64,000 nucleotides of DNA, from contig NZ_JAAQTO010000002.1 of assembly GCF_011742165.1 (NCBI RefSeq), positions 1 to 64,000 on the forward strand, in the 5' to 3' direction. A program made the position numbers and the translations under genes. This document shows positions 20,222 to 26,085 of the stretch, in pieces (position 1 is the stretch's first letter; each line of letters starts with the position of its first letter). The notes below the pieces were generated by a model, which did no database searches, was not told the DNA's origin, and saw only the letters and a list, made by a program, of their open reading frames with translations. This DNA comes from Billgrantia bachuensis (GTDB taxonomy: Bacteria; Pseudomonadota; Gammaproteobacteria; Pseudomonadales; Halomonadaceae).

Positions 20222-20238
20222 CTTACGTTAACGTCAAC
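20222..20238. promoter_or_regulatory. ACGTTAACGT palindrome upstream of the BCKDH genes
   Basis: A perfect 10-bp palindrome, ACGTTAACGT (20225-20234), lies inside CTTACGTTAACGTCAAC, 114 bp before the E1-alpha start. A TTGACT hexamer at 20190-20195 could be a -35 element. From memory, ACGT-containing inverted repeats resemble sites of the MerR-family regulator LiuR, which controls branched-chain amino acid catabolism. That link is tentative. Confidence 0.4.
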
Positions 20239-20351: not shown

Positions 20352-21578
20352 ATGACAACAACACACGACGTGCACACGCCGAGCTTCATGACCGGCGATG
20401 AGTTCAACATTCCCACCTTCCGCCTGCTGCAACAGGATGGCTCCCTGTTCGAGGGCGCCGAAGCGCCTGAGCTCGATGAGGAAAAGGCGCTGAAGATCTA
20501 CCGCGCCATGCTCGTCACCCGCGTGCTCGACGAGCGCATGATGGCGGCGCAGCGCCAGGGCCGGCTGTCGTTCTACATGCAATGCACCGGCGAGGAGGCA
20601 GCGGTCATCGGTGCCACCGCGGCGCTGGACGATGCCGACATGATCATGGCCCAGTATCGCGAGCAGGGAGCGCTGGTCTATCGCGGCTTCAGCTACGACG
20701 AGTTCATGAACCAGCTGTTCGGCAACGAGCTCGACTACGGCAAGGGCAGGCAGATGCCGATCCACTACGGTTCGCGCAAGCTGCACTACATGACCATCTC
20801 CTCGCCGCTGGCGACCCAGATTCCCCAGGCTACCGGCTACGCCTATGGCCAGAAGCTGGCCGGCGAGGGGCATTGCACCATTACCTTCTTCGGCGAGGGT
20901 GCGGCTTCCGAGGGGGATTTTCACGCCGCGCTCAACATGGCCTCGGTGCACAAGGTGCCGGTGATCTTCTTTTGCCGCAACAACGGCTATGCGATCTCGA
21001 CGCCGGCCAGCGAGCAGTTCGCCGCCGACGGCATAGCCCCACGCGCCTTCGGCTATCGCATGCACGTGATCCGTGTCGACGGTAACGACGTGCTGGCGGT
21101 GTACCGCGCTACACAGGATGCACGCAAGATCGCCGTGGAGATGAACCAGCCTGTGCTGATCGAGGCCATGACCTATCGGCTCGCGGCTCACTCTTCTTCC
21201 GACGACCCTTCCGGCTACCGCTCTCGCAAGGAAGAGGAGGCCTGGCGGGAGAAGGACCCGATCCTGCGCATGCAGCGCTGGCTGATCGATCTTGGCTGGT
21301 GGAGCGAAGAGCAGGAGAAGGAGCTGCAGGACAGCCTGCGTCGCGAGGTGCTCGAAACCATGAAGCGTGCCGAGAAGCGCCCGCCCCCGCCCCTCGAGAG
21401 CCTGGTCACGGATGTCTATGCCGACGTGACACCGGCGCTGCAGCGGCAGCTCGACGCCCTCAAGACCCATATTCGCAAGCACCCCGATGCCTACCCGAAG
21501 GGGGCGAGTTCCCTCGACCCCGGCGTCCAGGCGCCGGGCAGCGACCACAAGTCCAGCGATGAACAGGGAGGAGCCTGA
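20352..21578 (+). CDS. bkdA1: branched-chain 2-oxoacid dehydrogenase E1 component, alpha subunit
   Basis: A 408-aa thiamine diphosphate-dependent decarboxylase subunit. The TPP-binding motif runs from GEG at 181-183 to NN at 210-211. The E1-alpha family landmarks YREQG (102-106) and [17 protein letters not shown] are present. With E1-beta it decarboxylates the 2-oxoacids of Val, Leu and Ile and passes the acyl group to lipoyl-E2. The loop at residues 280-290 ([11 protein letters not shown]) matches the loop that holds the regulatory phospho-serine of mitochondrial BCKDH. Such a loop is common in bacterial homologues, so conservation alone does not prove phosphorylation. Downstream genes are E1-beta, E2 and a protein kinase. 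No E3 gene is present. Confidence 0.92.
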
Positions 21579-21579
21579 C

Positions 21580-22557
21580 ATGCCCAGGATGAACATGCTT
21601 CAGGCAATCAACAACGCGCTGGACATCGCCATGGCCGAAGACGAAAAGGTGCTCTGCTTCGGCGAGGACGTCGGTGTGTTCGGCGGCGTGTTTCGTGCCA
21701 CCAGTCATCTGCAGGAGAAGTACGGTCGTAACCGCTGCTTCAACACGCCGTTGGTGGAGCAGGGCATCATCGGTTTCGCCAACGGCCTGGCGGCCCAGGG
21801 CTCGGTGCCGGTGGCCGAGATCCAGTTTGCCGACTACATCTTTCCGGCCTTCGACCAGATCGTCAACGAGACCGCCAAGTTCCGCTTCCGCTCAGGCGAT
21901 CTGTTCAACGTCGGCGGGCTGACCATACGCGCGCCATATGGCGGCGGTATCTCCGGCGGGCTCTATCACTCTCAATCACCCGAGGCCTACTTCGCGCATA
22001 CGCCGGGGTTGAAGGTCGTAGTGCCGCGCAACCCCTACCAGGCCAAGGGGCTGCTGCTGTCGGCCATCCGCGATCCCGATCCGGTGGTCTTCTTCGAGCC
22101 CAAGCGGCTCTATCGCGCCTCGGTCGGCGAGGTGCCGGAAGAGGACTACCAACTGCCCATCGGCGAGGCCGAAGTCACCAAGGAGGGCAGCGATATCACC
22201 GTGCTCGGTTGGGGCGCGCAGATGGAAGTGATCGACAAGGCCGTGGAGTTGGCCGAGAAGGCGGGCATCTCCTGCGAGGTGATCGATCTTCGCAGCATCC
22301 TGCCTTGGGACGAGGACACCGTGGTCGAATCGGTGCTCAAGACGGGCCGGTTGTTGATCACCCACGAAGCGCCGCGTACCGGCGGTTTCGCCGGCGAGAT
22401 CGCCGCTACCATCCAGGAGCGCTGCTTCCTGTACCTGGAGTCGCCCATCGAACGGGTGACCGGGCTGGATACGCCTTTCCCGCTGACGCTGGAGAAGGAG
22501 TATCTGCCCGATCACTTGAAAATTTTCGAAGCGATCAAGGCATCCGTGGCGTTCTGA
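21580..22557 (+). CDS. bkdA2: branched-chain 2-oxoacid dehydrogenase E1 component, beta subunit
   Basis: A 325-aa transketolase-like subunit with [28 protein letters not shown] and the C-terminal transketolase domain containing DLRSILPWD and [11 protein letters not shown]. It pairs with E1-alpha to form the active site. The ATG at 21580 lies one base after the E1-alpha stop, with AGGGAGGAG upstream. The frame is open further upstream, but those codons overlap E1-alpha. Confidence 0.93.
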
Positions 22558-22584
22558 CGCCCGATATCAGGACAGGAGAAGACA

Positions 22585-24234
22585 ATGAGCGATTTCATGC
22601 TGCCCGATATCGGTGAAGGTATCGTGGAGTGCGAAGTGGTCGAATGGCGCATCGACGAAGGCGACGAGATCGCCGAAGACCAGCCCGTGGTCGAGGTAAT
22701 GACAGACAAGGCGCTGGTCGAGATCACCGCCCCGGAGGCTGGGCGCGTCACCAGGTTGTATGTGGCGAAGGGCGAGATCGCCAAGGTGCATGCCCCGCTA
22801 TTCGCCTATGAGGCGACGGGCGAGGAAGGCCTCGAGACACCTCCTCGTCCTGCTGCGCGGGAAGAGGACGAAGTGGCGAGCCCCGCGGCCGAAGCGCCTC
22901 CCCCTGGCGCGTCGAGTGCTGCACCTACGCCCGCAGCTGCCGTCAGGACGAAGGACTTCATCCTGCCCGATATCGGCGAGGGCATCGTCGAGTGCGAGGT
23001 GGTTGAGTGGCGCGTGGCCGAGGGCGAGCACATCGAAGAGGACCAGCCGCTGGTCGATGTGATGACCGACAAGGCAATGGTCGAGATCACCGCTCCCGAG
23101 GCGGGCACCGTCAGCAAGCTCTACGTACCCAAGGGCGAGATAGCCAAGGTACATGCGCCACTGTTCGCCTATACACCCAGCCATGCAGAGCCGAGCGAAA
23201 GCCCGGCGGCCGGCAGCGAGACATCTCGCCCGGAAAGCCTGGCGGAAGTGCCTTCCGTCTCCTCCGTGGCCAGCGGCGGCCGAGGGCCTTACGGGCGTAT
23301 CCCGGCGAGCCCCGCGGTGCGACGCCTGGTACGCGAGCACGGCCTGTCGCTCGAGGCGATTGCCGGCTCAGGCAAGGACGGCCGCGTACTCAAGGAGGAC
23401 GTGCTGCGCTTTCTTGAAAGCGGCCCGCGCGAAGACGGCCAGCTCGAGCACGATCGGCAGCGCAGTGAGCGGCCCGCGAGCTATTCCCGGCCCAGCGATG
23501 CGGTCAAGCCGCCGAGACGTGATGACGGCGAAATACGCGTCGAGCCGATTCGCGGCGTGCGTGCGGTAATGGCTCGGCGCATGGTCGAGTCGGCCAGCAC
23601 CATCCCGCATTTCCAGTATGGCGAGGAGATCGATGTCACTGAACTTCTGACCCTGCGTGAGCGACTGAAACCGGTGGCCGAGGCGCAGCAGGTTCGTCTG
23701 ACGCTGATGCCGTTCTTCATGAAAGCGCTGGCCTTGGCGGTTCGTGAGGAGCCGATCCTCAATGCACGGCTAAACGCCGAGGTGACCGAGATCCACTACC
23801 TGCCTTCGGTCAACGTGGGCATGGCGGTGGACAGCCGATCAGGGCTGATCGTGCCCAACGTCAAGCATGTCGAACAGCGTAGCGTGCTCGACGTGGCCCG
23901 CGAGATCCAACGTCTCACCGCAGATGCCCGCGACGGCAGGGTGGCACAGGAGGACCTCAAGGGCGGAACCATCAGCGTCTCCAACATCGGGGCGCTCGGC
24001 GGTACCTATGCGGCACCGATCATCAATGCTCCGGAATTGGCCATCGTCGCCATCGGCAAGAGCCAGTGGCTGCCGCGCTTCGACGAGCGCGGCGAGGTGA
24101 CGAGGCGGGCAATCATGACGGTGACCTGGGCGGGCGACCATCGGGTGATCGACGGCGGCACCATCGCCCGCTTCTGCAACGCCTGGAAGGGCTACCTCGA
24201 AGCGCCGGAGACCATGCTACTTCACCTAGGCTGA
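22585..24234 (+). CDS. bkdB: branched-chain 2-oxoacid dehydrogenase E2 (dihydrolipoyl acyltransferase), two lipoyl domains
   Basis: A 549-aa E2 core. Two lipoyl domains are present: residues 1-77 with the lipoylated lysine Lys42 in TDKALVEI, and 122-197 with Lys163 in TDKAMVEI. They are nearly identical and joined by an Ala/Pro-rich linker. The E1/E3-binding domain follows at about 237-276 (RIPASPAVRRLVREHGL). The acyltransferase domain has the catalytic HRVID (His519, Asp523). Branched-chain E2 proteins usually carry a single lipoyl domain, so the second appears to be a duplication. The protein forms the structural core of the complex in the cytoplasm. The kinase gene begins 9 nt after its stop. 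Confidence 0.93.
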   Translation: MSDFMLPDIGEGIVECEVVEWRIDEGDEIAEDQPVVEVMTDKALVEITAPEAGRVTRLYVAKGEIAKVHAPLFAYEATGEEGLETPPRPAAREEDEVASPAAEAPPPGASSAAPTPAAAVRTKDFILPDIGEGIVECEVVEWRVAEGEHIEEDQPLVDVMTDKAMVEITAPEAGTVSKLYVPKGEIAKVHAPLFAYTPSHAEPSESPAAGSETSRPESLAEVPSVSSVASGGRGPYGRIPASPAVRRLVREHGLSLEAIAGSGKDGRVLKEDVLRFLESGPREDGQLEHDRQRSERPASYSRPSDAVKPPRRDDGEIRVEPIRGVRAVMARRMVESASTIPHFQYGEEIDVTELLTLRERLKPVAEAQQVRLTLMPFFMKALALAVREEPILNARLNAEVTEIHYLPSVNVGMAVDSRSGLIVPNVKHVEQRSVLDVAREIQRLTADARDGRVAQEDLKGGTISVSNIGALGGTYAAPIINAPELAIVAIGKSQWLPRFDERGEVTRRAIMTVTWAGDHRVIDGGTIARFCNAWKGYLEAPETMLLHLG

Positions 24235-24243
24235 GGCCGGTTC

Positions 24244-26085
24244 ATGTCCCAGGCGCCGCTGCAGCAGTTCTACATTCCGGAAGAGCAGTCGATCTACCTG
24301 CTCAGCCACGACGATGCGCGCAAGCTCAAGGAGTGGGTGGCGCTGTGTCAGGCCCAGCTCGAACAGTTGGGCTATCGGGATATCGAACTGATCGGCAAGG
24401 GCGCCTATGGCTTCGTCTTCGCCGGGATCACCGCCCACGACGAGGAGTACGTGTTCAAGTTCACCCGGGTCAACCTGCCCCAGCAGTTGCAGGATCGCCT
24501 CGAGGAGGAGGCGTTCATGCTGGAGCAGGTGGAACACTCCCGGGTGCCGCGGCTGATCGCCTTCCAGCGGGTGCGCAACCAGTCGATCCTTGTGATGCAG
24601 CGTGCCCCGGGCATCAACCTGGAAGAGGTTTCGCTACGGGAAGGACGTCTCTCGCCGCGCCTGGTGGTGCGCATCGCCGACCAGCTCGCCGACATCCTGC
24701 GCAGCCTGCGGCGCGAAACGGGGCCGGCGGGACGCCCCATCGTGCATGGCGACATCAAGCCGTCGAACCTGGTCTTCGACGCCGGTCGCGAGGCGGTGGC
24801 GCTGATCGACTGGGGCTCGTCGGTATTCGCCCAGCTCGACGCCAACCAGCAGTTCGTGTCGGCCAACGTGATGGAGCTGATGTCGGACAACCTGCAGCAG
24901 ACCAATGCGCGTCTTGGCGACGTCTACTTCATCGGCGAGGAGCAGCTGAACGGCGCATTGTCGTCGCCGCGCTTCGACGAACAGGGCGCTGCCGGCACTC
25001 TCTACGCGCTGGCCTCGGCGCAGTCGTGCCGCTTCGGTCATCGCGCCATTCCCGCCACCTCCCTGGGCCTGCCCATGGAGTTTGCCCGCATGCTCGATGG
25101 CATGCTCGATCCCGACCCGCGCGTGAGGCTGCGCGCCGGGGATCACTTCATTCGCGAGATGCCGCGCCTGGCACGGGTGGTGATGATCGACCTGCCGGAA
25201 GCCGCGGAATCGCCGCTGGTGCCGACCTGGGTACGACCCTCGGCGCGCGAGATCGATACCGTGGTGTACAGCTCGCGCAAGGCTTTCCTGCGCGAGGAGG
25301 GCGGCCGCGAGACGCTCAACGACGTCAATGACGTCCAGCTCGACCGCTACTACAAGAACTTCATGCAGGGCATGGGCGAGACCGAGAAAGCATTCCTTGC
25401 AGCAGTGAGCCGCCTGGGCAAGTATCCTGTGGTAGGCGGGCTCGCCGTGCGCTGGGAAGCCGATGGCGTCTATATCGACACCTCGTTGAATCTGCACGAC
25501 ACCAGGCTCAAGTCGGCTTTCGTCGCCGCCGTCAATAACATGGTCAATCTGGCCCGCGCCATCTATCGCCAGGGCATCTTCAAGAGCTGCTTGTTCAACG
25601 CCCGCGATACCCTGCACCTGGATCGAGAAAGCCCGGCGCATCCCTTCGTCGTCGAGCCCGGCATGCAGCTGCGCTACGAGGTCAGCGCGGTACCCGAACT
25701 GGAGGATCGCAGCCGCCTGCACAGCTATTTTGAGGACGGGCCCGATCCCGAGGAATTCCTGGTCCTGCCGGAGACGATCATTACCTCGCTGGAAGCCCTC
25801 AACGAGATCCATCACACCGGTATGATCATCTTCGAGGCGTTGCCCCAACACCTCAAGATTCATAGTTACTATCGCCTGCTCGACCCCTCCCGCGAGGCGG
25901 AGTTCCGCGATCGTCTCGAGGACATCCTGGCGGCGGTGGGCCTGATCGAAGGGCTCGGTGTCTCCGGCTTCATGAAGATGCCCTACAAGGACACGCGCTT
26001 CTTCGCCCATGTCGAACGCCAGCCCGAGCGCTACTACCCGCGTAATCCACGCGAAGAGATCCATCATGACGGCGCCCGAGGCTAG
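24244..26085 (+). CDS. Hanks-type serine/threonine protein kinase with unassigned C-terminal half
   Basis: A 613-aa soluble protein. Residues about 40-320 form a eukaryote-like kinase: glycine loop GKGAYGFVF (51-59), ATP-anchoring Lys72, a catalytic loop HGDIKPSN (168-175, with Asp170 and Asn175) and DWG (189-191) in place of DFG. The key catalytic residues are kept, so it should be active. The HGD and DWG variants are reminiscent of atypical kinases. Residues about 330-613 match nothing I recognise, and no membrane segment or PASTA repeat is seen. The gene begins 9 nt after bkdB on the same strand, so it is probably co-transcribed with the dehydrogenase genes. Its substrate is unknown, and E1-alpha is an obvious candidate. 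Confidence 0.8.
   Translation: MSQAPLQQFYIPEEQSIYLLSHDDARKLKEWVALCQAQLEQLGYRDIELIGKGAYGFVFAGITAHDEEYVFKFTRVNLPQQLQDRLEEEAFMLEQVEHSRVPRLIAFQRVRNQSILVMQRAPGINLEEVSLREGRLSPRLVVRIADQLADILRSLRRETGPAGRPIVHGDIKPSNLVFDAGREAVALIDWGSSVFAQLDANQQFVSANVMELMSDNLQQTNARLGDVYFIGEEQLNGALSSPRFDEQGAAGTLYALASAQSCRFGHRAIPATSLGLPMEFARMLDGMLDPDPRVRLRAGDHFIREMPRLARVVMIDLPEAAESPLVPTWVRPSAREIDTVVYSSRKAFLREEGGRETLNDVNDVQLDRYYKNFMQGMGETEKAFLAAVSRLGKYPVVGGLAVRWEADGVYIDTSLNLHDTRLKSAFVAAVNNMVNLARAIYRQGIFKSCLFNARDTLHLDRESPAHPFVVEPGMQLRYEVSAVPELEDRSRLHSYFEDGPDPEEFLVLPETIITSLEALNEIHHTGMIIFEALPQHLKIHSYYRLLDPSREAEFRDRLEDILAAVGLIEGLGVSGFMKMPYKDTRFFAHVERQPERYYPRNPREEIHHDGARG

Follow-up and report, generated by a model that had tools for sequence, protein, structure and literature searches.

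In mitochondria, the branched-chain 2-oxoacid dehydrogenase complex (BCKDH) is controlled by phosphorylation: BCKDK, a PDK family kinase of the histidine-kinase (GHKL) fold, phosphorylates its E1-alpha subunit. Two bacterial systems offer further points of comparison. In the PknG/GarA/OdhI system of Actinobacteria, a Hanks kinase controls 2-oxoglutarate dehydrogenase through an FHA protein, while AceK, the isocitrate dehydrogenase kinase/phosphatase, is similar in size to the protein described here and is encoded by the last gene of a metabolic operon. We analyzed a 64,000-nucleotide stretch of Billgrantia bachuensis DNA (contig NZ_JAAQTO010000002.1, positions 1 to 64,000, hereafter the window), in which a gene for a 613-residue Hanks-type protein kinase follows the E1-alpha, E1-beta and E2 genes of a BCKDH. 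Findings discussed below support the view that this kinase serves the dehydrogenase or its pathway. We further propose, with a probability of roughly 60%, that it is a dedicated Ser/Thr kinase that would tune BCKDH by phosphorylating, and presumably inhibiting, the complex.

Like BCKDK, the kinase would act on BCKDH, and the E1-alpha encoded beside it is nearest to BCKDH E1-alpha structures; unlike BCKDK, it has the Hanks rather than the GHKL fold. It shares with the bacterial Hanks Ser/Thr kinases PknA and StkP the glycine loop, the catalytic Lys, the HxD loop with its Lys and Asn, the metal-binding Asp and the fold, but differs from them in bearing HGD and DWG in place of HRD and DFG, in its C-terminal half of ~290 residues, in its tie to one metabolic operon, and in having no transmembrane segment, as judged by eye. 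The PknG system likewise joins a bacterial Hanks kinase to a 2-oxoacid dehydrogenase; unlike that system, the 4 operon proteins gave no Pfam match to FHA. As with AceK, the kinase gene comes last in a metabolic operon; unlike AceK, its kinase domain is N-terminal, and no AceK chain appeared among the best 60 PDB profile matches or the best 50 Foldseek matches of the kinase. Among the open-access PMC matches listed, no report described a bacterial kinase of BCKDH, which points weakly to novelty; such a kinase may be undescribed in bacteria.

Co-occurrence of the kinase with one clade of BCKDH

Kinase and E1-alpha were scored in 4 partly overlapping draws of genomes. The kinase was counted as present at a bit score >500, as was E1-alpha in the family and order draws; in family f6 all listed E1-alpha matches exceeded 530 bits, and in family f185 an identity of at least 57% (at least 477 bits) was used. 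The family draw of 151 genomes contained 113 with both genes, 37 with neither, none with E1-alpha only and one, G131, with the kinase only; its kinase starts 2063 bases into the contig, at which distance the upstream genes would fall off the contig. Genome G105, whose damaged kinase scores 311 bits, is counted among the 113. Likewise, the order draw of 390 genomes contained 49 with both, 336 with neither, one with the kinase only (G345) and 4 with E1-alpha only (G287, G487, G507 and G518). Presence was therefore concordant in 150/151 family and 385/390 order genomes. Both genes were found in 12 of the 22 f6 genomes (9 of them unlinked) and neither in the other 10, with no discordant genome; the 94 f185 genomes comprised 74 with both, 2 with the kinase only, 9 with E1-alpha only and 9 with neither.

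Kinase without an E1-alpha of this clade was accordingly rare (1/151, 1/390, 0/22 and 2/94 genomes in the family, order, f6 and f185 draws, respectively). For f185, this amounts to E1-alpha being absent from 2 of 76 kinase genomes, compared to the kinase being absent from 9 of 83 E1-alpha genomes. The 2 kinase-only assemblies are 84 and 85% complete, and 2 of those with E1-alpha only (G1192 and G1223) are either incomplete (85%) or fragmented (800 contigs). BCKDH can persist after the kinase is lost, and this one-sided dependence, in which the kinase needs BCKDH and not the reverse, is the pattern of a dedicated regulator.

In wider draws, which overlap in part with those above, the kinase was sparse. 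A search for the kinase only found it in 6 of 369 genomes of the class draw, including a copy truncated at a contig end in G881, and it was present in 16 of 299 genomes of the phylum draw, all in the class of the window. The kinase was absent from all 16 order genomes whose sole E1-alpha is 39-44% identical; G324, in the same draw, had both E1-alpha types together with the kinase. A further 102 order genomes gave weak kinase matches (E 2.5e-10 to 9.5e-4, and 6e-16 for a relic in G457) that look like other Hanks kinases, and none of them had this E1-alpha. Taken together, these results indicate an association with one clade of BCKDH, and not with bkd genes as a whole or with Hanks kinases of every kind.

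The G105 kinase (34% identical, 3 stops) was considered as a natural loss and rejected, because the E2 and kinase genes of this genome both lie inside an 11-kb block of strand-asymmetric substitution. The block (L130:7510-18001 and the start of L159; G105:C8, ~99.5-110.8 kb) has sharp limits within otherwise normal sequence and a T content of ~4% on one strand. Compared to 3 relatives, only 23-24% of T was kept, with A, C and G taking its place in about equal shares, and 42-43% of G, the rest having become A or C; 63-64% of C and 83-87% of A were kept. The block reflects either strand-asymmetric hypermutation or an assembly artefact.

Gene order, and persistence of the association when the genes are apart

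A GTDB-wide scan found 264 stretches with a relative of the kinase, of which the best 80 (the named loci) were inspected; this set is biased to close relatives. In 79 of the 80, the kinase is preceded on its own strand by an E2 gene, either complete or truncated at a contig end, an arrangement that is not due to chance. The gap between them is <300 nt in 74 of these 79 loci and 725 to 2725 nt in the other 5; in the 4 wide-gap loci inspected (L055, L068, L078 and L079) other open frames intervene. At the remaining locus, in Halomonas ramblicola (L048:7001-8842), the kinase occupies its usual place before the TRAP genes, and the 7 kb preceding it, the part of this genome that was searched, gave no E1 or E2 match. 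No kinase relative was found in viral contigs (25 stretches), and plasmids gave no match.

Most of the co-occurrence lies in genomes in which the genes are linked, where one deletion removes them all. The association could therefore reflect hitch-hiking, whereby a kinase with a function unrelated to BCKDH keeps its neighbourhood through joint inheritance of the operon. The genomes in which the genes are apart make this very improbable. In f6, the 9 unlinked pairs, on different contigs or >49 kb apart, stand against the 10 double absences, and genera g111 and g69 show mixed presence that is concordant throughout. One of these 10 f6 genomes keeps a 68-residue kinase remnant (L154, G457:C1:675789-675992), a trace of the joint loss of both genes. 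Five genomes of genus g3 in family f1 have both genes, either separated by 17-28 kb or split between contigs. Among the 74 f185 pairs, the kinase lies at most 4 kb downstream of E1-alpha in 44 and 4-12 kb away in 12; of the remaining 18, 2 have the kinase on the opposite strand, 6 have it on another contig (some of these being fragmented assemblies), and the rest have it farther than 12 kb away. Linkage changed at least 8 times on an E1-alpha tree of 93 rows, 15 of which had linkage unset. The association of kinase and E1-alpha thus survives separation of the genes.

The protein is a Hanks-type kinase

The kinase comprises a conserved N-terminal tail (residues 5-25), a kinase domain (~40-310) and a C-terminal half (~320-606). 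Pfam assigned it to Pkinase (PF00069) at 62.8 bits against a cut-off of 31.7, with only profile positions 1-152 of 263 aligned. We aligned the window protein with those of 137 loci (138 rows, 110 distinct sequences, identity to the window protein down to 52%), leaving out 3 of 140 loci (the damaged G105 copy and 2 contig-end fragments). Positions G51, G53, K72, E89, H168, G169, D170, K172, P173, S174, N175, D189, W190 and G191 were invariant in all 138 rows, and I171 was kept in 137. The catalytic set of eukaryotic-type protein kinases (K72, E89, D170, N175 and D189) is accordingly present throughout, with E89 assigned as the alpha-C Glu from its position. Every row has HGD and DWG, lacking the arginine of HRD and the phenylalanine of DFG; since non-RD kinases count as Hanks kinases, we did not treat this as excluding membership. 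The first 25 residues have a mean conservation of 0.86, comparable to that of the kinase domain.

An alternative that these data make improbable is that the protein belongs to the APH type of small-molecule kinases and acts on a metabolite or cofactor of the pathway instead of a protein. APH (PF01636) did score over its own cut-off (40.6 bits against 23.2), and the HGD and IDWG motifs resemble those of APH enzymes; however, it was not the best match, as Pkinase scored higher. The D-I-K-P-S-N loop, whose lysine we take to be that of Ser/Thr kinases, is invariant or nearly so in the 138 rows. Moreover, the best 50 Foldseek matches of the full-length model (E 4.7e-10 to 2.5e-8) and the best 60 matches of a PDB profile search were all protein kinases; the model has a mean pLDDT of 52 and is of good quality solely in stretches within residues 22-190. 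The defence-kinase models MAD6 and PglW matched weakly (45 and 41 bits, far under their cut-offs of 460 and 990), which looks like general kinase similarity. No Pfam match to the BCDHK_Adom3 or HATPase domains of the PDK/BCKDK family was obtained up to E 1; a search of the kinase's own genome with PF10436 was uninformative, since the controls were likewise without a match. Taken together, its conserved residues and profile matches identify the 613-residue protein as a Hanks-type protein kinase, predicted to transfer phosphate to protein.

The C-terminal half

Most of the C-terminal half is as conserved as the kinase domain (means of 0.74-0.94 in 25-residue segments between positions 326 and 600). 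Searched alone it had no Pfam match, and in 25 relatives the matches were isolated and weak, led by DUF4417 (0.0007) in a single member; a profile of it against PDB found nothing convincing (best E 0.13). A model of the fragment (pLDDT 62, pTM 0.60), built like the full-length model from a shallow alignment of window and related-locus sequences only, contains 2 alpha-beta-beta-alpha-beta units. These aligned with each other by hhalign with a probability of 58.7% over 63 columns, falling to 25.8% with query and template exchanged, a hint that the half may have arisen by duplication. No fold match of the model was confident (best Foldseek E 0.11, best Z 4.7). We considered reading the half as ACT-like and make no such claim. 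The half may serve to dock or to sense, and the tandem units could perhaps bind branched-chain amino or oxo acids. Genome G889 carries a second, partial copy of the C-terminal part (G889:C4:11687-12223; residues 425-603, 55%) beside the full gene.

The adjacent complex is a mitochondrial-like BCKDH

The operon encodes E1-alpha, E1-beta and E2 with the domains expected of a BCKDH: Pfam found E1_dh and the transketolase halves in the E1 subunits, and 2 lipoyl domains, an E3-binding domain and an acyltransferase domain in E2. NCBIfam models for pyruvate dehydrogenase (PDH) scored under their cut-offs on the operon proteins. Among solved structures, 1dtw and its variants, the alpha subunit of human branched-chain alpha-keto acid dehydrogenase, came nearest to E1-alpha (410 bits), followed by 1um9 (238 bits; Thermus), 2bp7 and 1qs0 (224 bits; Pseudomonas putida) and mitochondrial PDH E1-alpha (154 bits). 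At 2 loci with the kinase elsewhere in the genome (L138 and L140), the E1-E2 genes lie downstream of HMG-CoA lyase and biotin carboxylase genes, the latter tested in L138 and identified by eye in L140. Such neighbours are as expected for leucine breakdown and, with 1dtw as the nearest structure, identify the complex as a BCKDH of the mitochondrial-like kind, with predicted activity on branched-chain 2-oxoacids.

The window E1-alpha is far closer to mitochondrial BCKDH E1-alpha (410 bits) than to those of bacteria with solved structures (at most 238 bits), a likeness that may bear on the origin of mitochondrial BCKDH.

Organization of the operon

The 4 genes are encoded on one strand in the order given in Table 1, with intergenic gaps of 1, 27 and 9 nt, the E2 stop codon occupying 24232-24234. 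A sequence-only reading of the window had placed the kinase start 9 nt past E2, with Lys72, Asp170 and Asn175 intact and an unassigned C-terminal half; its coordinates and residues proved correct for operon and kinase alike, and each of these statements agrees with the results above. The kinase is probably transcribed on the same mRNA as the E1-E2 genes. The same reading had the kinase in the position usual for E3, which is accurate as a description of the arrangement and says nothing on function; by eye, no E3 gene was found among the open frames between or just after the operon genes, the rest of the genome not having been searched. A scan for promoters and terminators found no promoter, and terminators at chance level. 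Upstream of the operon lie glycine-betaine-type ABC transporter genes, and downstream TRAP transporter genes that converge on it (names by eye).

Table 1. Positions of the operon genes and associated elements in the window.
Feature	Position	Strand	Description	Basis
E1-alpha gene	20352-21578	+	408 aa, BCKDH E1-alpha, mitochondrial-like	PF00676 338.7 bits, structure match
E1-beta gene	21580-22557	+	325 aa, BCKDH E1-beta	PF02779, PF02780
E2 gene	22585-24234	+	549 aa, BCKDH E2	PF00364 twice, PF02817, PF00198
Hanks-type protein kinase gene	24244-26085	+	613 aa	PF00069, invariant catalytic residues, Foldseek
Kinase C-terminal half, residues 334-604	25243-26055	+	no confident family	low-confidence model
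GAGG, Shine-Dalgarno-like motif of kinase	24233-24236	+	overlaps E2 stop	sequence
Palindrome ACGTTAACGT	20225-20234		candidate operator, 117 nt 5' of E1-alpha start codon	

The palindrome ahead of E1-alpha is conserved. Among 75 named loci, 60 carry ACGTWWACGT in the 350 nt preceding E1-alpha, compared to a total of 62 occurrences in all 80 loci (1.22 Mb); the 64-kb window has it just once. The copy in the window, ACGTTAACGT, is likely an operator, for which a LiuR/MerR-type repressor is a candidate binder.

Proposed role of the kinase

We propose that the kinase, made from the operon mRNA or, where the genes are separated, from its own locus, would phosphorylate a subunit of BCKDH, most likely E1-alpha, with E2 or E1-beta also possible. 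A signal read by its own C-terminal half would trigger phosphorylation, which would in turn lower the flux of branched-chain 2-oxoacids. The sequence-only reading had likewise suggested that the kinase may regulate the dehydrogenase, and would have been abandoned had the family been found mostly away from bkd genes; the position of E2 in the named loci shows otherwise. Its suggestion stands insofar as co-occurrence in the 4 draws supports service to the dehydrogenase or its pathway, and fails in its argument from the serine loop of E1-alpha. That loop does lie at residues 280-290, as had been read, and S281 aligns opposite the first serine of HSTSDD in 1dtw-type BCKDH E1-alpha, which we take to be the mitochondrial phosphorylation site, with position 291 presumably matching the second. 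Nevertheless, S281 and S283 were invariant both with the kinase (145/145 E1-alpha rows) and without it (13/13), and the loop is rejected as evidence for regulation.

Several observations weigh against the proposal. The loop serines persist in the 13 E1-alpha genomes in which no kinase was found, so their conservation does not depend on the kinase. These genomes also show A279 replaced by G in 7 of 13 and R330 by K in 9 of 13, changes that are indistinguishable from shared descent. Genome G345 carries the kinase, missing its first 32 residues, without an E1-alpha of this clade, and no phosphatase gene is evident in the operon. Fisher tests gave values of 1.5e-34 (family), 2.2e-56 (order), 1.1e-5 (f6, unlinked only) and 2.1e-6 (f185) that are a guide only, since the genomes share descent and the values overstate the case. 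Kinase presence changed 7 times on the E1-alpha tree of 93 rows, with 4 changes forced by supported branches, and kinase-loss events number only 4 to 7.

In the 145 rows with the kinase, position 291 is occupied by S (126), T (17) or L (2), compared to S (2), T (9), N (1) or G (1) in the 13 rows without, a difference that shared descent may explain. L277, A279, S291 and R330 were tried as kinase-linked sites and rejected, as supported branches offered only 4 independent pairs, with which significance was unreachable.

The remaining points against the proposal come from the surroundings of unlinked kinases, inspected in 7 f6 genomes (G506, G405, G328, G490, G307, G423 and G348) and 4 of genus g3 in f1 (G054, G065, G042 and G002). 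In G065 and G042, where E1-alpha sits on a different contig, a gap of 4 nt separates the kinase from an upstream gene for a thiamine enzyme of the acetolactate-synthase-like kind; the G065 gene scores 326.9 bits to TIGR00118, under the cut-off of 538. In these 2 genomes of the genus (L135:6476-10010 and L136:6127-9646) the order is a FAD-binding dehydrogenase gene, the acetolactate-synthase-like gene and then the kinase. In G348, the kinase lies ~1 kb past genes resembling LivG and LivF of branched-chain amino acid uptake, with models under their cut-offs. These neighbours fit a tie to branched-chain amino acids and also allow a target other than BCKDH. The substrate might thus be another protein of the pathway, such as a thiamine-diphosphate enzyme, a transporter or a transcription factor, with BCKDH being just the best marker of that pathway, and co-occurrence alone cannot part the two. 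We nonetheless regard this as unlikely, though it deserves serious consideration: E2 is the usual neighbour in the named loci, in more than half of the f185 pairs (44/74) the kinase lies within 4 kb downstream of E1-alpha, and the other unlinked loci show varied neighbours, among them phosphoglycerate dehydrogenase (L122), UshA (L121) and a diguanylate cyclase (L127), the rest being named by eye.

A dedicated kinase of BCKDH is therefore the reading we prefer. A bolder and less probable form of it, which we put forward tentatively, is an independently evolved BCKDH switch in which a Hanks kinase with a tandem sensor would act on E1-alpha at the very serine loop used by BCKDK, possibly with dephosphorylation of the AceK kind. 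If true, it would represent convergent evolution, with the same control placed on the same enzyme by 2 unrelated kinase folds.

Taken together, the pairing is real and strongly conserved, and the kinase is probably a new regulator of a central catabolic enzyme. The kinase is found in many marine and salt-loving bacteria, nearly always with BCKDH, which suggests that bacteria evolved a BCKDH switch of their own. If the proposal is correct, a large kinase family, represented by the 264 stretches of the GTDB-wide scan, would gain a likely substrate, convergent regulation by 2 kinase folds could be tested on a single enzyme, and halophiles that can be cultured would become a bacterial model in which to study BCKDH regulation.

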